DNA of 22,942 bases from a virus. A program made the position numbers and the translations under genes. A model generated the notes under the pieces. It saw only the letters and a list, made by a program, of their open reading frames with translations, was not told where the DNA came from and made no database searches. Positions 4,170-17,599 of this stretch are shown in pieces. The stretch lies in IMG/VR virus record IMGVR_UViG_3300042350_006161, positions 1 through 22,942 of that record; one strand, 5' to 3'. Every line of letters starts with the position of its first letter. Position 1 is the stretch's first letter.

Positions 4170-4373
4170 TCAATACTTTCGCGCATCGCGCTCCTCCTCA
4201 CGTTTCGCCTGCTGCTCCGCCTGCCACAGCAGCCGGTCCAGCGTCTTGCGCATCCTGTCCACCTGCCCGCTCATGTGGATCACGTAGAGCGGCATCAAGA
4301 TCGTTGCAATAATGATCGCCAGCATCACCACCAGCACAATCAAACCCGGCACAGTCGAAGTAAGGTCAATCAT
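4170..4373 (-). CDS. Small membrane protein with charged C-terminal helix, 67 aa
   Basis: The proposed ATG at 4373 is preceded by TTGGAGGT. An earlier in-frame ATG at 4418 would add 15 residues read from repeat-like DNA. One long hydrophobic segment (P-G-L-I-V-L-V-V-M-L-A-I-I-I-A-T-I-L, about residues 9-32) is followed by an amphipathic, strongly charged helix (Q-V-D-R-M-R-K-T-L-D-R-L-L-W-Q-A-E-Q-Q-A-K). It lies immediately downstream of the integrase. Membrane-anchored coiled-coil proteins of this shape can be holin-like or superinfection-exclusion proteins; the role is unknown. Confidence 0.6.
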   Translation of the reverse strand: MIDLTSTVPGLIVLVVMLAIIIATILMPLYVIHMSGQVDRMRKTLDRLLWQAEQQAKREEERDARKY

Positions 4374-4377
4374 ACCT

Positions 4378-4402
4378 CCAACCAAGAACCAAGAACAAGC
4401 CA
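4378..4402. repeat. GGTTCTTG octamer tract
   Basis: The plus strand reads CCAACCAAGAACCAAGAACA followed by AGCC, two and a half 8-nt units of (GGTTCTTG) on the minus strand. It sits just upstream of the 4373 start and about 20 nt from a TTAGGG-type tract, so two repeat families share one short intergenic region. Confidence 0.65.
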
Positions 4403-4420
4403 CCGTCAACACTATCACTT

Positions 4421-4465
4421 CATAACCCTTAACCCCTAACCACTAACTCTTAACCTCTAACTCAC
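4421..4465. repeat. TTAGGG-type heptamer tract at the integrase 3' end
   Basis: The plus strand reads CATAACCCTTAACCCCTAAC, then CACTAACTCTTAACCTCTAA, then CTCAC. There are about six units. The integrase stop codon (TAG, 4443-4445) and its last residues (G-E-L-E-V-K-S) lie inside the tract. Confidence 0.85.
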
Positions 4466-5588
4466 CCCCCCCCACCGTCGGCATCAGCGCAAAAAACCGC
4501 TCCGCCTCACCCCGCGTCTTCAGCGCCCGGTAATTCGTATGCAGCACATCCGCGCTCCGTTGCCCCAAGATCGCCTGCAACGCCGCCTCGTCCTGGTGCA
4601 GCGCGTAATGCATCGAGGCGAACGTATGCCGCAGCCCGTTGTGCGGCCAGCGTGGCAAGCCCGCCTGTTTCCAAAACTTCGGCCAGAGCACCTTCAGATT
4701 GCTCGGAGCCACCGGCCCCGTCTGCATCATCTCCTCCGTCCACCCGGCCGCCGCGATCCATGCCCGCATCTGCGGCGTCAGTTCCATGACGCGCCGCCGC
4801 CGCGTTTTCACCTTCGCCGCGCTCGCGATCACCGATCCACTCTCCAGATTGATCTCCTCCCACCGCAGCCGCTCCAGCTCCGAGCGCCGCATGCCCCGAA
4901 ACAAACCAAGAACCAGAAACGGCATGAACCGCGGCACCTTGAGCCCCGTCATCAACAAGGCCTCACACGACCGCAGCGAAAGCACCTCCACCTCCGCCGG
5001 AGAAACCGTCACCTCCTCCAGCCCTTCGCATGGATCAAGGCCCGCATGCTTCTCAGCAATCGCCCATTTGAACAAACCGCGCACATGCCCCATCGCCTTG
5101 TTCTGCGTCGCCGGGCTCCACCCTTGCGACCTGCGCCACACCTTCAAGTCTTCGCGCGTCATTTCGTGCGCATGCCGCAGCGGAAACGCCCGCGCCAAAG
5201 CCCGCAGCACATGGCGGTAAGTCTGAATCGTCCGCACATCCCTTCCGAGCTCGATGCGGCTCCAGATAAAATCCTCCACCAGCGCAGGCATCAACTTCGG
5301 ATGCCGCACCTTCAAGCCATGCTCCATGAAAAATTCCACCGCCTCGAGAATCGAAGCCCCACACGCCCGCAACCTCTCCCTCACCGCCAAAAACTCCGCC
5401 ATCTCCAACGGCGACGCCGTCAGACCCAAGGCCCCGAGCCGTCGTTTGGTTCCATTCGCACTGGCCAGAGCCGCCTGAGCTTCCTGCTCCGTATCAAAAA
5501 CCACCTGCCGCCTCCGGCCTTCCACCAGCCCATAATCCAACGCCCACTTTTTAGTTCCCGACGGATATTTTCGCTCACGAATGATCAT
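4443..5588 (-). CDS. int: Tyrosine recombinase / phage integrase, 381 aa
   Basis: This enzyme would catalyse site-specific insertion and excision of the phage. The first ~45 residues form an arm-type DNA-binding module (S-G-T-K-K-W-A-L-D-Y-G-L-V-E-G-R-R-R with D-T-E-Q-E-A-Q-A-A-L). Residues about 80-185 are the core-binding helices and 200-370 the catalytic domain. Visible catalytic positions are Arg234 in G-M-R-R-S-E-L, a lysine around 259-261, Arg320 in H-N-G-L-R-H-T-F-A-S, and Tyr353 in H-T-N-Y-R-A-L. The usual H-x-x-R appears as H316-N-G-L-R, so the His is shifted by one, and the LGH is LGQ. The start at 5588 overlaps the GIY-YIG stop (ATGA); an ATG three codons earlier is also possible. 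Confidence 0.92.
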   Translation of the reverse strand: MIIRERKYPSGTKKWALDYGLVEGRRRQVVFDTEQEAQAALASANGTKRRLGALGLTASPLEMAEFLAVRERLRACGASILEAVEFFMEHGLKVRHPKLMPALVEDFIWSRIELGRDVRTIQTYRHVLRALARAFPLRHAHEMTREDLKVWRRSQGWSPATQNKAMGHVRGLFKWAIAEKHAGLDPCEGLEEVTVSPAEVEVLSLRSCEALLMTGLKVPRFMPFLVLGLFRGMRRSELERLRWEEINLESGSVIASAAKVKTRRRRVMELTPQMRAWIAAAGWTEEMMQTGPVAPSNLKVLWPKFWKQAGLPRWPHNGLRHTFASMHYALHQDEAALQAILGQRSADVLHTNYRALKTRGEAERFFALMPTVGGGELEVKS

Positions 5589-6172
5589 GGTTTGCAATGC
5601 CCCGTTTGAAATTGAATTGGCGCTTCGCCATTGTGAGGCGGTTGCAGTTTTTTAATCCACCAAGACTCCATCTCAAAGCATTCCTGTGGAGCATACGGAA
5701 TGACAAAAACGACGGAGAACGGAATCACACCGCGCTGCCGATGCCGAGCCACCCTGGCTGGAATATCCTGCGACATTCCCACGTAGAGAATCCTGCTGAC
5801 TTCATCGCAGAGAAAATACACTCCTGACGTTGCGTGTGGCAGTTCAAAAACATGCGGATGGTCACGCAACTCACTGGGGCAAACAGCACCTGCTCGATAA
5901 GCACGCAGACGCACAATTTCACACTGAAGCTCGCCTAGTTTTTTGCTTTGCTCAGCCACGAGCTCACGCAGGCGCTCTTTTTCGCGGTCAATTTCCTCGA
6001 TCGAAGCGTTGCGTCGAACATACCCGACCATGTTGGCTTTTTGCGCCTCCTCCTTTGTTCGGAAGGATTTTAAAATCCTTTTTCCATTCACAATTCCAAA
6101 ATCAACCTGCCAAGAAATAGAACCTGACCGATTACGACGGCGGCGCATCGTCACCCCATGCGAATTCTTCAT
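5585..6172 (-). CDS. GIY-YIG nuclease with integrase-like N-terminal DNA-binding module, 195 aa
   Basis: Residues 16-47 (G-S-I-S-W-Q-V-D-F-G-I-V-N-G-K-R, then S-F-R-T-K-E-E-A-Q-K-A-N) closely match the N-terminal module of the adjacent integrase. Residues about 57-93 are a coiled coil. Residues 115-182 are a GIY-YIG domain: G117-V-Y119 and L-Y130-V-G132-M-S for the two motifs, Arg140, Glu169 in M-E-S-W-W-I-K-K-L and Asn181 in P-P-H-N. All expected catalytic positions are present. It overlaps the integrase by ATGA, so the two are co-translated. The start is ATG 6172; 6148 (after GGGGTGACG) is an alternative. A DNA-nicking partner in integration or a homing-like enzyme are both possible; neither is shown. 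Confidence 0.85.
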   Translation of the reverse strand: MKNSHGVTMRRRRNRSGSISWQVDFGIVNGKRILKSFRTKEEAQKANMVGYVRRNASIEEIDREKERLRELVAEQSKKLGELQCEIVRLRAYRAGAVCPSELRDHPHVFELPHATSGVYFLCDEVSRILYVGMSQDIPARVARHRQRGVIPFSVVFVIPYAPQECFEMESWWIKKLQPPHNGEAPIQFQTGHCKP

Positions 6173-6239
6173 GCGCAAAACAGACCAGATAAAAAACTGG
6201 CGTCAATTAAAAACTCGTAACGCTGGTGACGTCTAAACC

Positions 6240-6326
6240 GTCTTTTCGCGTCTTTTCGAGTCCTTTCCCGCCCTTTTCTTCCCTCTCCACTCTCTAGTGA
6301 GAGTGGCGACCCCTACGAGAATCGAA
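6240..6326. other. Candidate attP region: tandem arm-type repeats, hairpin, tRNA-3'-end-like core
   Basis: Four adjacent 10-bp units lie at 6240-6279: GTCTTTTCGC, GTCTTTTCGA, GTCCTTTCCC, GCCCTTTTCT. Next is a perfect hairpin CCACTCTC-TAGT-GAGAGTGG (6287-6306). On the minus strand 6326-6304 reads like the 3' end of a tRNA: T-loop TTCGATT, T-stem half CTCGT, acceptor half AGGGGTC, discriminator G, then CCA. The matching 5' halves are absent, so this is a fragment and not a tRNA gene. Its position beside the integrase operon fits an attP that uses a tRNA 3' end as core. The functions are inferred. Confidence 0.6.
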
Positions 6327-6394
6327 GACTAGTTGGTGGCTTGTTTTTCAACGGACTCGGCGCAGAGGTGGCTTTTGAGTGACGGCGTGTTCGA

Positions 6395-6958
6395 TTACTG
6401 AGTGGCTTGGAAATGCATGGCATCGCGGCCCCAGAAGGCACCGGCGGAGAGCCAGCCTTCGCGGCTGAAGGCTTCCATGACTTCGATCGGCATGGTGGCG
6501 GCGACGGGCCAGGCGATGTGGTTGCCGTTGGTGTCGGGGTCGAGATCGACGGCGGCACCGCGGGCGTGGAGGCTGGGCAGGCTGCCGCCGCGCATGGGAC
6601 GATTGTTGTAGCAGCCAGCGTATTGAGCGAGGACGGACCGGGAGGGGCCGCTGGCGATTTCTTCGAGCACGCGGCGGAGGCTGGCGCCGACTTTGCCGTG
6701 GCAGCGGATGATCCTCACAGGCTTGCCGTCGTATTTGAGGCCGAGGTCGGCAACGTCGATGGGGACGAGTTTCGATTCGTCACCGGCGGCACTGTAGAAC
6801 TTGGTGAGGCTGGCTTGATCGGATTTGGGCCACGGGTTTTTCGCTGGCATGAGGCTGCGCAGGTGGCGCTGGCAGGCGGCGATGCTGGCGGGTCCCCAGA
6901 AACCGTCGGGCTCGGCGCCGATGCGCTCTTGGAGGGCGCGGATGTCTTTGGGGTTCAT
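6395..6958 (-). CDS. Endolysin: peptidoglycan-binding plus M15-type D,D/L-Ala-D-Glu peptidase, 187 aa
   Basis: The protein would cut cell-wall peptide cross-links at lysis. Residues 3-35 (K-D-I-R-A-L-Q-E-R-I-G-A-E-P-D-G-F-W-G-P-A-S) are a PG_binding_1-type repeat. Residues 78-185 are an M15 peptidase domain with the zinc and catalytic pattern S-L-H131-A-R-G-A-A-V-D138 and a closing W-G-R-D-A-M-H182-F. There is no signal peptide, so export depends on a holin. ATG 6958 follows a C-rich leader without Shine-Dalgarno. It is the last gene of the late region before the putative att site. Confidence 0.88.
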   Translation of the reverse strand: MNPKDIRALQERIGAEPDGFWGPASIAACQRHLRSLMPAKNPWPKSDQASLTKFYSAAGDESKLVPIDVADLGLKYDGKPVRIIRCHGKVGASLRRVLEEIASGPSRSVLAQYAGCYNNRPMRGGSLPSLHARGAAVDLDPDTNGNHIAWPVAATMPIEVMEAFSREGWLSAGAFWGRDAMHFQATQ

Positions 6959-8678: not shown

Positions 8679-10307
8679 TCAGTGTTGAATAACGGTGGCG
8701 CGAAAGGTGCCGCTGGCGGGATTGATGTTGCCGATGAGGTTGTTGTTCATGAAGCGCACAGTCACGGTGTCGGCGGCGCTGACCCAGGCGCGGAAATCAC
8801 ACGAGCCCGCCGGATGCGAGGCGTTGACGATGCCGAGCACGACGACGTTGCCATCGACGGCACCAGTGACAGTGATGGTGAGATCGGTGGTGGCCTGCGG
8901 GGCGGTGTCGGCAAAGTCGAGTGTGGCGGTGGCGGTGAGGACTTTGGAAATGGCGCTGCCGCCGCTGCCGATGGTGAACCCCGAACTACTCACCCGAGCC
9001 TTCTCGGTCGAGTCGTAAACGAGGATCATCTCGCGAGCGCTACCACCACCGCTACCTTTTTGCGTGCCGACACGCCCGACGTTGCCAGACCAGTCGAGCA
9101 CGAGTGACTCGTAGCTCGTGTCATTAGTGTAAGTGTTGATGACATGTAACCCTTGCGCCGTGGTGGTTGTCACGCCGACCAACATGGTCTTGGCCGCTGC
9201 CAGATTTGTGAGGCGTTGATTGTTTCCGAACCAGTAACCTTTGCCGCTGGTGTTGCCACTGATCCAAAAGCCTGCCTGGTCATAGTCTATACTGCTGCCC
9301 GCCGAGGACCCTTTGAAACTACCCGCAAACACCGTGGCGCTGAAGGTGAAATTCCCCGATCCCATGCTACCAGCGATCACGCTGGCGGCTGGTAGGCCGG
9401 TGGCATTCGTCAACACGAGTGCCGACGGCGTGCCGAGGGCGGGCGTGGTGAAGGTCGGACTCGTGGTCATGGCGACGTTGCCGGTGCCGCTGATGGTGTA
9501 TTCGCCGACGACGCCGCCGTTGTTGTAAAGCACGCGCGTTGTGCTGCCGCTGGTAATAGTGGTCGAGCCGATGGTGATGCCGCCGCCACCGGCGGCGGGT
9601 GCCCAGGTGGTGCCATTCCAACTCAGGACTTGGCCGCTGGTGGCACCGCCCTGCGCGAGGTAGCCGAGACCGATGGCGGTGCCGTTCCAGGTGCCGCTGG
9701 TGATCGTGCCGACTGTGGTGATGGCGGTGAGGTTGCCGGTGCCGATGAGCGTGCCGCCGACAGTCGGCAGCGTGAAGGTTTGAAAGGAGCCCATGCCATC
9801 GCTCGGCGAGATGACGGCCTGCACGTTGTCGGCGGCTTCGAGCTGCAACACGCCGGGCAGCCACCCGCCGCTGTTGATGCGGTGGATGGTGAGAGCACGC
9901 GAGATGTCGGCCTCGCCAAAGCTGCCAAAGATCATCACCTTGCCGCCATCGGTTGTGTAATTGCCGCCGGTGCTGGTCGCCAGCGTGGCGGCGGTGCCGA
10001 GGCCGAGATTCGTGCGAGCCGTGGCGGCGCTGGTCAGGTCGGAGAGGTTGTTGGTCGTGACGAGGGCGTTTGTGATGCCGTAGCCCGAGAGCGTGGTCGG
10101 TTTGCCGCTCAGATCAGAGAACGCCCCGCCGAAGGGCGTGATGGCGGCGGGGATTCCGGCGGTCTGGCCGATAACTTGACCGTTGCTCAGCGTGACGCCG
10201 TAGCTGGTGAAGCCGGAGGCACCGCGCTTGCGGAGCTCGTATTGGCCGACGGTTTGGGCGGCGGCGAAGGTGGAAAGAAGGAGGAGGGGAAGGAAAAAGC
10301 GGATCAT
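8679..10307 (-). CDS. Tail fibre / receptor-binding-like protein with Sec signal peptide, 542 aa
   Basis: The protein is Gly/Thr/Ser/Ala-rich and beta-repetitive, with fibre-type modules such as T-L-G-T-P-S-A-L-V-L-T-N-A-T-G-L-P, T-I-T-S-G-T-W-N-G-T-A-I-G and L-S-W-N-G-T-T-W-A-P. The C-terminal ~75 residues (A-T-L-D-F-A-D-T-A-P-Q...L-T-I-T-V-T-G-A...F-R-A-W-V-S-A-A-D-T-V-T-V-R-F) look like a C-terminal module I associate with many phage fibre proteins. The N-terminus (M-I-R-F-F-L-P-L-L-L-L-S-T-F-A-A-A-Q) is a classical signal peptide, which is odd for a virion protein. ATG 10307 is preferred; a start at 10325 adds six residues. Confidence 0.75.
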   Translation of the reverse strand: MIRFFLPLLLLSTFAAAQTVGQYELRKRGASGFTSYGVTLSNGQVIGQTAGIPAAITPFGGAFSDLSGKPTTLSGYGITNALVTTNNLSDLTSAATARTNLGLGTAATLATSTGGNYTTDGGKVMIFGSFGEADISRALTIHRINSGGWLPGVLQLEAADNVQAVISPSDGMGSFQTFTLPTVGGTLIGTGNLTAITTVGTITSGTWNGTAIGLGYLAQGGATSGQVLSWNGTTWAPAAGGGGITIGSTTITSGSTTRVLYNNGGVVGEYTISGTGNVAMTTSPTFTTPALGTPSALVLTNATGLPAASVIAGSMGSGNFTFSATVFAGSFKGSSAGSSIDYDQAGFWISGNTSGKGYWFGNNQRLTNLAAAKTMLVGVTTTTAQGLHVINTYTNDTSYESLVLDWSGNVGRVGTQKGSGGGSAREMILVYDSTEKARVSSSGFTIGSGGSAISKVLTATATLDFADTAPQATTDLTITVTGAVDGNVVVLGIVNASHPAGSCDFRAWVSAADTVTVRFMNNNLIGNINPASGTFRATVIQH

Positions 10308-10308
10308 T

Positions 10309-10346
10309 GGGAGACAATGGGACAATCAGACAATGAGACTGGGAGA
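10309..10346. repeat. GACAATCA octamer tract, inverted relative to the early ones
   Basis: The plus strand reads GGGAGACAATGGGACAATCA, then GACAATGAGACTGGGAGA, four 8-nt units. The early tracts show this text on the minus strand, so this copy is in the opposite orientation relative to transcription and gives a pyrimidine-rich leader (CATTGTCTCCCA) to the fibre gene. Confidence 0.8.
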
Positions 10347-15867: not shown

Positions 15868-15911
15868 GGGTTAAGAGTTAAGGGTTAGGGGTTAGGGGTT
15901 ATGAGTTAGGG
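15868..15911. repeat. TTAGGG-type heptamer tract between two glycosyltransferase genes
   Basis: The plus strand reads GGGTTAAGAGTTAAGGGTTA, GGGGTTAGGGGTTATGAGTT, then AGGG. Six regular units. The last codons of the upstream enzyme (P-P-N-S-stop) are encoded inside the tract. Confidence 0.9.
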
Positions 15912-17599
15912 GGCACGGTGCGGACTTTTTGGCCGGTGAGGTGCTCGTAGATGGCGGCTCCTTCGGCGTAGCGTTCGGGGGAGTTGTGGGCGGCATAGAT
16001 TTCGTCCCAGCCTTGGCCGTTGTTGAAGAAGGGGTGGTGGTGCTGGATGACGATGTGATTTGCCTGGATGACGACGTCGTCGCGATGGGCGAGCCAGGAG
16101 TGGTAGTCGTCGCTGAAGACGCTCTTGAACTTGGGATGCAGGAAGAAACCTTGCTCCTTGTATCGCAGCCGGTTCATCACGGCGATGCAGAGGAGGTCGT
16201 CGGTGCGGTGGCCGTCGCTGACTTTGAGAACGGCGGGTTGAAGGGTGAGGTATTCGCCGAAGGCCTGTTCGATCATCACGTCCCAGCCCATGGGCGGCTC
16301 GAAGTCGTCGTTGATCTGCACGAGGATCTCGCCACACGACGCGGCGGCGGCGAGATTCCAGGCACCGACGCTGGCCCCCTGCCCCGTCTGGATGACGTGA
16401 CGGTAAACGGTGAGCGGGATGCTGGGCTCGTCGTCGAAGTCGATGGCAAAGATGTGCTCGACGCGGTCAGGATGCGTGGCGCGGTTCAGCCACTGGCGGC
16501 GCGCATCGGCGGCCTGTTTCGGACGACCTCGGGTGGCGTGCAGCAGCGTGATGACGGGATGCGATTGCGCTTTGAGATGGTTGATCTCGCGCACGTCGGC
16601 CTCCTTGAATCGCAGATTGGCACGCAGGGCCATGCCGTGGAGCTGGACGCCGAGATAACCGTAGTATTTGCCGCGGCGATTCCAGATGTATTCAGGCGGC
16701 TCGCTGAGGCCGAGCATGGCCTCGGCATACGAAAGCGCGGCGCGTGGATTGCCAAGGCGCAGCTTGCAGTTCACCATCTCGCCAAAGGCCTCGCGGCGAT
16801 ACGGCACGGCGTTGAGTGCCTGAAGCAAATACTGCTCCTGCGCGCGCGGATTCGTGCTGACCTGCGCGATGTTGATCATGAGCTCGTAGGCTTCGTCCGG
16901 GCCGATGTCGGGATGCTTGAGTGCTTGCTGGGCAATCTTCACGCCTTCTTCAATGCGTCCGACGTAGCGCATCGACTGCCAGAGGTGGAAGAGATGCGAG
17001 AGTGTGCGTTCCGACTCGGGGATGCTCTCCAGAATGCGCAGGTTGCGCTCGTTGTTCGGCGTGCGGTCGTTGTGCGTGGCGTGATGCCACTCGGGCGACT
17101 CCTGCACGATGACGCGCGGCGAATCCATGCTCACCTTGAAGCTCTCATGGATCGGCGAGACCCAGACACCGCAGCCACGGCGCAGAATGCGCTCACGCAG
17201 CACGCAAAGCTGATCTTCCGGCACGACATAGGGCAATGTGACGACATCCGGCCGCTCGGCGGCGATGCGTTTGCGCAGGGCCTGCCATTCATCCAGCGTG
17301 CCGCCATAGACGTCGTCCGTGTCTGCCCAGGCGATGTAATCGCCGGTGGCGAGCTTGAAGGCGAGATTGCGAGCGGCGGCGAAATCATCGACGTGGGACC
17401 ATTCGGCATGCTCGGGCTTGTTGCAATACTCGGCGGTGATGCAGCCGCGTTCGCGGGCGATGTCGAGGCTGGCATCGGGGGATTGATTCCCGATGGCGCG
17501 CACGACGACGATCTCGTCGAAGAGCGAGCCGAAGGAGTCGAGGAAGCGCGGCATCCAGTGCGCGACGTTTCCGGCGATGATGGCGAGGCTGATTTTCAT
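15899..17599 (-). CDS. Two-domain glycosyltransferase with TPR-like linker, 566 aa
   Basis: The N-terminal domain (residues 1-160) is GT2: I-S-L-A-I-I-A-G-N-V-A, F-D-E-I-V-V-V, then R-N-L-A-F-K-L-A-T-G-D-Y-I-A-W-A-D-T-D-D with D93-T-D95-D. Residues about 200-300 are helical with TPR-like spacing (R-I-E-E-G-V-K-I-A-Q-Q-A-L). The C-terminal domain (345-540) is a second GT: P-V-I-T-L-L-H-A-T-R-G-R-P, A-S-V-G-A-W-N-L-A-A-A-A and I-N-D431-D432-F-E-P-P. A closing D-D-Y-H-S-W...H-H-H-P-F-F segment is visible. Such bifunctional enzymes build short glycans. ATG 17599 overlaps the previous stop (ATGA). Late-gene placement suggests capsid or tail glycosylation. Confidence 0.85.
   Translation of the reverse strand: MKISLAIIAGNVAHWMPRFLDSFGSLFDEIVVVRAIGNQSPDASLDIARERGCITAEYCNKPEHAEWSHVDDFAAARNLAFKLATGDYIAWADTDDVYGGTLDEWQALRKRIAAERPDVVTLPYVVPEDQLCVLRERILRRGCGVWVSPIHESFKVSMDSPRVIVQESPEWHHATHNDRTPNNERNLRILESIPESERTLSHLFHLWQSMRYVGRIEEGVKIAQQALKHPDIGPDEAYELMINIAQVSTNPRAQEQYLLQALNAVPYRREAFGEMVNCKLRLGNPRAALSYAEAMLGLSEPPEYIWNRRGKYYGYLGVQLHGMALRANLRFKEADVREINHLKAQSHPVITLLHATRGRPKQAADARRQWLNRATHPDRVEHIFAIDFDDEPSIPLTVYRHVIQTGQGASVGAWNLAAAASCGEILVQINDDFEPPMGWDVMIEQAFGEYLTLQPAVLKVSDGHRTDDLLCIAVMNRLRYKEQGFFLHPKFKSVFSDDYHSWLAHRDDVVIQANHIVIQHHHPFFNNGQGWDEIYAAHNSPERYAEGAAIYEHLTGQKVRTVPPNS

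Follow-up and report, generated by a model that had tools for sequence, protein, structure and literature searches.

A GIY-YIG nuclease gene with an integrase-type arm-binding module beside the attachment site of a small clade of temperate phages

Results

In the phage record IMGVR_UViG_3300042350_006161 (positions 1 to 22,942; this whole stretch of 22,942 nucleotides is called the window, and labels such as L003 and L004 denote comparison sequences), a chimeric nuclease gene lies next to the attP and overlaps the integrase gene (Table 1). Its product joins an integrase-type arm-binding module, which we call the reader, to a C-terminal GIY-YIG domain, and the gene is probably a selfish or competitor-attacking element aimed at the integration machinery. 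Sequence comparisons establish five features of this gene: its domain make-up, its position, its foreign composition, the single origin of its module and the recent transfer of the block around it as one unit. The viruses that bear it are few, and their hosts are bacteria of the Verrucomicrobiota type.

Table 1. Coordinates of the features at the nuclease-integrase locus of the window.
Feature	Position	Strand	Evidence
Chimeric GIY-YIG nuclease gene, 195 aa	5585..6172	-	Pfam, PHROG, I-TevI alignment
Tyrosine integrase gene, 381 aa	4443..5588	-	Pfam Phage_integrase E=5e-7; phrog_1 E=4e-33
ATGA shared by nuclease stop and integrase start	5585..5588	-	ORF coordinates
Nuclease residues 7-57, integrase-type arm-binding module	6002..6154	-	Homology and predicted fold
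Nuclease residues 58-105, helical/coiled linker	5858..6001	-	Predicted helix, residues 40-93
Nuclease residues 106-195, GIY-YIG catalytic domain	5588..5857	-	Pfam, I-TevI alignment
Integrase N-terminus, second divergent arm-binding module	5436..5588	-	50% aa identity to L004 over residues 8-51, vs 98% in the body
attP core (TTCGATTCTCGTAGGGGTCGCCA), tRNA-Glu(TTC) 3' end	6304..6326	-	Exact in 7 other IMG/VR contigs
Left arm-type repeat pair (CGTCACTCAAAAGCCAC)	6368..6384	-	Equivalents in relatives
Right arm-type repeat pair (CGTCAC-CAG-CGTTAC)	6217..6231	-	Degenerate vs nuclease-less relatives
Tandem period-10 repeats GAAAAGACGC/GAAAAGACG	6239..6257	-	Right side of core only
Apparent mobile block, 772 bp, 100% identical to L003	5437..6208	-	Flanks about 7-10% diverged

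The locus and its attachment site

On the minus strand the nuclease gene (195 aa) is followed by the integrase gene (381 aa) with an ATGA overlap at 5585-5588, and the coordinates bear out an earlier note on this DNA, made from its letters alone, which had placed the two overlapping genes beside a putative attP. The same layout was found in three distinct contigs (the window, L003 and L004), two of them from different IMG datasets, and is therefore not an assembly accident. The attP also turned out to be real, its core being the 3' end of a tRNA-Glu(TTC) gene: the 23 bp at 6304-6326 recur as exact copies in seven other viral contigs and are identical to the end of a complete tRNA-Glu(TTC) in a Verrucomicrobiota genome, where it lies beside a related integrase (L022:3830-3904) and is the probable attB of these phages.

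In nearly all phages examined, pairs of direct repeats lie to the left and right of the core, usually 10-12 bp apart and with a sequence particular to each phage, and we take these pairs to be arm-type sites. Left-side pairs are present in all seven same-core relatives and in most of the other phages checked. In the window the left pair is CGTCAC...GCCAC and the right pair CGTCAC...CGTTAC; in the other phages the repeats read CGTCAC in L007, CGTAAC in L011 and L080, CGTGAC in L088, L082 and L083, CGGCAC in L014 and L019, CGGCAG in L018 and CGTTAA in L016. Most of these phages also have period-10 tandem repeats (AAAAGNCG type; 6239-6257 in the window), which occur on the integrase side of the core only.

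An integrase-type module fused to a GIY-YIG domain

The first 45 to 70 or so residues of the nuclease are, by sequence, homologous to integrase arm-binding modules. Residues 7-46 share 40% identity with residues 1-40 of the neighbouring integrase (BLASTP, E=3e-7), which upholds the shared N-terminal module proposed in the earlier note, and a profile-profile comparison of the two N-termini (hhalign) related them over 40 columns at 98% probability and E=1.7e-13. Against an HMM built exclusively from the integrase modules of other phages the nuclease scored 51.2 bits, compared with 9.6 for the best among 10,000 shuffles, and it kept 49.5 bits when the closest sequence was left out of the model. 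Furthermore, PHROG integrase families match residues 12-73, so that in sequence the module classes with the N-terminal arm-binding domains of integrases. Its predicted fold, three strands and a helix at high confidence, may also be that of the arm-binding domains of the HPI, HAI7 and P4-like integrases, although the structural matches to these domains (3rmp, 3jtz and 3ju0), and likewise to AP2 domains, are weak (Z 3-4) and suggestive only. Unlike those arm domains, the module in the nuclease has no recombinase attached. The earlier note knew of no described system with this layout, and a literature search likewise found no described fusion of an arm domain with a nuclease.

The C-terminal half passes the Pfam PF01541 cut-off narrowly (22.7 vs 22.6 bits) and does not match the T5orf172-type GIY-YIG domain. 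Residues G117/Y119, Y130/G132, R140, H144 and E169 align with G4/Y6, Y17/G19, R27, H31 and E75 of I-TevI, and N181 is assigned through its PPHN motif only, outside that alignment. With this qualification for N181, the catalytic positions are intact, as had been proposed, and the Pfam match and catalytic residues together assign the protein to the GIY-YIG nuclease superfamily. The catalytic half of the predicted structure has low confidence because the alignment is too shallow, and a Foldseek search with the whole nuclease model gave no significant match in the PDB. Among known defence models there were weak GIY-YIG matches only. The nuclease resembles I-TevI and other GIY-YIG homing endonucleases in its catalytic residues and in having separate binding and cutting parts joined by a linker; unlike I-TevI, it has the reverse domain order with the catalytic part C-terminal, its binding module is of the integrase type and it is not associated with an intron. 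A reading as a group I intron ORF was rejected, since no Rfam match for such an RNA was found at E<=5 within 4300-6500.

In the databases, the closest relative of the GIY-YIG core is a protein of Sinorhizobium phage NV1.1.1 (L118; 34% identity over 97 aa). In that phage (2496-4381) a tyrosine integrase gene lies upstream and overlaps the GIY-YIG gene by a four-base ATGA, and the GIY-YIG protein has an N-terminus weakly like HTH_17/excisionase families (E 0.03-0.06) ahead of its C-terminal GIY-YIG domain. This would be an independent integrase/GIY-YIG pairing with another reader, interesting as a single case. Neighbouring integrase and GIY-YIG genes, for which a search in other phages had been suggested, are thus found in L003 and L004 and, as a different pair, in NV1.1.1.

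The nuclease lies where the integrase normally begins

Five phages without the nuclease share the core (L007, L014, L016, L018 and L019), and in these the integrase starts 92-132 bp to its right. In the window it is the module of the nuclease that starts close to the core, at 150 bp, and the integrase starts at 716 bp. Additionally, the context of the L007 integrase start, GGGGTGATTTTGAGG, aligns with GGGGTGACGATGCG inside the nuclease gene. From these alignments, the nuclease occupies the place where the integrase's own module normally starts.

The composition of this cassette is foreign. Over the stretch that starts at the right arm sites and ends with integrase codon 51, GC content is 47-56%. 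The nuclease has a GC3 of about 47% and the integrase module one of 57%; for the integrase body and the majority of the other genes the value is about 80%. The window and L003 do not differ at a single position from 6208 to 5437 (772 bp), whereas the divergence of the flanks, about 7-10% on both sides, predicts about 58 mismatches; the block ends at the right arm on one side and at codon 51 of the integrase on the other, and no other 100-column stretch of the aligned parts is 100% identical. These values indicate that the block was transferred recently as one unit. L004 presents another combination: its nuclease core is 94-95% identical to that of the window in nucleotides (98% in protein for the GIY-YIG domain) and its integrase body is 92% identical in DNA and 98% in protein, whereas the nuclease module is only 65% identical in nucleotides, the integrase module 52% over codons 8-51, and the upstream region is also a different variant. 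Since the core is alike and the flanking modules are not, modules on both sides of the core have been exchanged. The window and L004 share further tracts of about 100% identity at 6976-6290 and 4400-3400; these phages therefore recombine in general, and the identical block could be the result of ordinary recombination.

Elsewhere in the window, a large secreted and possibly tail-fibre-like gene (8679-10325) is strongly divergent in its middle in L003 and L004, phages that are otherwise 90-97% identical, and a two-domain glycosyltransferase gene (15899-17599; PHROG E about 1e-14 for each half) lies among structural genes.

Besides the window, a GIY-YIG match was found in two of 12 related phage records (L003 and L004), and the nuclease is limited to this single phage clade, so that no repeated invasion is seen. 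A search for the nuclease core in viral contigs, phage records and 388 and 289 genomes of the host phylum and order, respectively, gave no further copies, the genome searches having been run without a positive control and their negative result being weak evidence accordingly. In the same genomes the module was found in integrase-sized frames only, except for one frame of 114 aa. At a single site, then, the nuclease is present in three phages and absent from ten related records, and the 772-bp block is more alike than its flanks of about 7-10% divergence in phages that recombine generally; on these comparisons the cassette looks mobile.

Origin of the reader and its likely sites

The earlier note had matched the module of the nuclease to that of the adjoining integrase in particular, and this pairing did not hold. 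The nuclease module scores 56 bits against the integrase module of L007, a nuclease-less phage with the same tRNA-Glu attachment core, and 34 bits against the neighbouring integrase. In the module tree the two nuclease modules form one clade (100/100), which stands beside L007 with weak support (48/87), and a tree forcing the nuclease module together with that of the neighbouring integrase was rejected (p_AU 3e-4); its closest kin is thus an integrase of a phage that lacks the nuclease. From the tree and the similarity scores, the reader goes back to a single capture in the more distant past, out of an integrase of the same clade, and not to a recent copy of its neighbour; the sequences thereby give the captured module a single origin. 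A recent duplication of the neighbouring integrase's module within the phage is rejected by the same tree test. Fresh capture of the resident integrase module at each invasion is also unlikely, given the low GC common to module and cassette and the single clade (100/100). For the second module, the one now on the window integrase, our search found no donor.

It had also been proposed that both proteins bind the same sites, which the comparison does not support as stated and which is perhaps wrong: the nuclease and integrase modules differ in strand-1 residues of a kind that seems to vary with the arm-site sequence. The nuclease modules and the L007 integrase have N-R-S-G-S in common, and the arms of L007 are CGTCAC, like those of the window. 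The integrase modules of the window and L004 have Y at the N position of this motif, as do six integrases whose arms are CGTGAC; the window attP itself has no CGTGAC pair. More generally, the fourth base of CGTNAC tends to match the residue at position 8 of an integrase N-module (Y with CGTGAC, 6/6), a possible specificity code that we regard as a lead only, as it is uncorrected for kinship. A strict one-residue code at position 8 (N with CGTCAC, H with CGTAAC, Y with CGTGAC) is suggestive but is broken by L025, which has H and CGTGAC, and shared descent has not been removed from it.

Discussion

Our preferred explanation, which we hold with slightly more confidence than doubt, is that the locus is a homing-type GIY-YIG cassette that has captured an integrase arm-site reader and replaces the 5' ends of integrase genes; the suggestion of a homing nuclease with a captured module, one of several in the earlier note, is thus supported. 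Such a cassette would run from the right arm sites through the nuclease (reader, coil and GIY-YIG domain) to a replacement N-terminal module for the integrase, and would take over the attP-proximal 5' end of the integrase gene. The reader would bring the nuclease to CGTCAC-type arm sites of related phages that use the same tRNA-Glu attachment site, the GIY-YIG domain would cut near the start of their integrase gene, and repair from the nuclease-bearing genome would copy the cassette in, with the new N-module making the integrase whole again but without the original target. Arm sites are also found immediately upstream of the nuclease gene, and the nuclease may therefore, by analogy with I-TevI, repress its own operon as well. 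CGTCAC is kept in the phage's own attP, so immunity would need a lost cleavage site.

Two known systems each resemble one side of this arrangement. Odn (Gp88) of Vibrio phage ICP1 combines a RepA_N replication-initiator module borrowed from a satellite with a GIY-YIG-superfamily nuclease and cuts the satellite origin (PMC8263062). Like the window nuclease, Odn and related T5orf172 nucleases have a C-terminal GIY-YIG-superfamily domain behind an N-terminal module homologous to a protein of another element (PMC8263062, PMC10448857), and the identity of the borrowed module is similar (42% in Odn; 40% over 40 aa between the window nuclease and its neighbouring integrase). They differ in that the window nuclease has an integrase arm-binding domain in place of RepA_N, lies within the integrase operon and is a putative cutter only. 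In fungal mitochondria, endonuclease ORFs (Allomyces atp6; Glomus atp6, atp9, cox2 and nad3) bring with them a C-terminal stretch of the host gene that is of foreign origin (PMC3630166). There, as in the window, an endonuclease ORF within a gene brings a divergent terminal replacement and two unlike copies remain (PMC3630166), whereas in the window the duplicated part is N-terminal, one of its copies forms the reader of the nuclease itself, and the gene concerned encodes a phage integrase. Both features are combined in the window, which leads us to favour the homing-type cassette, with an Odn-like attack as its main rival.

That rival, in which the borrowed reader would direct cutting of the attP/integrase region of same-site phages or satellites and homing would be unneeded, is possible, if on the improbable side. 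It has the shared architecture of Odn in its favour (PMC8263062). The nearest kin of the reader, the module of the L007 integrase, comes from a phage that shares the attachment core; the reader is in this sense homologous to a protein with which a rival element binds its site, at the weak tree support noted above. In NV1.1.1 the GIY-YIG relative is joined to a DNA-binding domain of another kind, and its gene likewise overlaps that of an integrase. However, no satellite or competitor is known in these hosts, self-protection is not obvious when the phage's own arms contain CGTCAC, and a block with a replaced integrase module exceeds what such a nuclease needs.

The ATGA-overlap operon, together with arm sites upstream of the nuclease of the type expected for its reader, would fit a domesticated partner of the integrase, one that would attach to the arm sites of its own phage and either nick or bend attP or act as a repressor, and so steer integration, excision or superintegration. 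We consider this role, also raised in the earlier note, unlikely: positive evidence for it was not found, and the close integrase relatives examined, two phages excepted, have no nuclease. A GIY-YIG protein is absent from 10/12 related phage records, same-core ones included, so the nuclease is not needed for the integrase reaction, and a helper is less likely when the gene is missing from most close relatives; the foreign composition and the recent transfer of the block also speak against it. Lastly, two integrase genes might have recombined around a free-standing homing gene, leaving an accidental fusion with an inactive or untargeted nuclease. The rarity of the gene, in one clade only, would agree with such a decaying by-product, but the open frame and the catalytic residues are preserved in three phages and the GIY-YIG domain is 98% identical in protein despite the exchange of the modules that flank it, which makes this very unlikely.

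In a wider and more tentative proposal, to which we give considerably more doubt than credence, GIY-YIG nucleases would repeatedly take readers from the recombination machinery (arm-binding here, possibly excisionase-like in NV1.1.1) and sit in integrase operons as weapons or drives against the attachment sites of competing temperate phages, forcing a turnover of arm specificity. More directly, the locus would show that the recognition domain of an integrase is open to capture by homing or warfare nucleases, which makes attP itself a battleground, and would explain mechanistically how arm-binding modules and arm sites come to be swapped, as is visible among temperate phages. The natural pairs of reader and arm site found here also make the DNA specificity of arm-binding domains testable.
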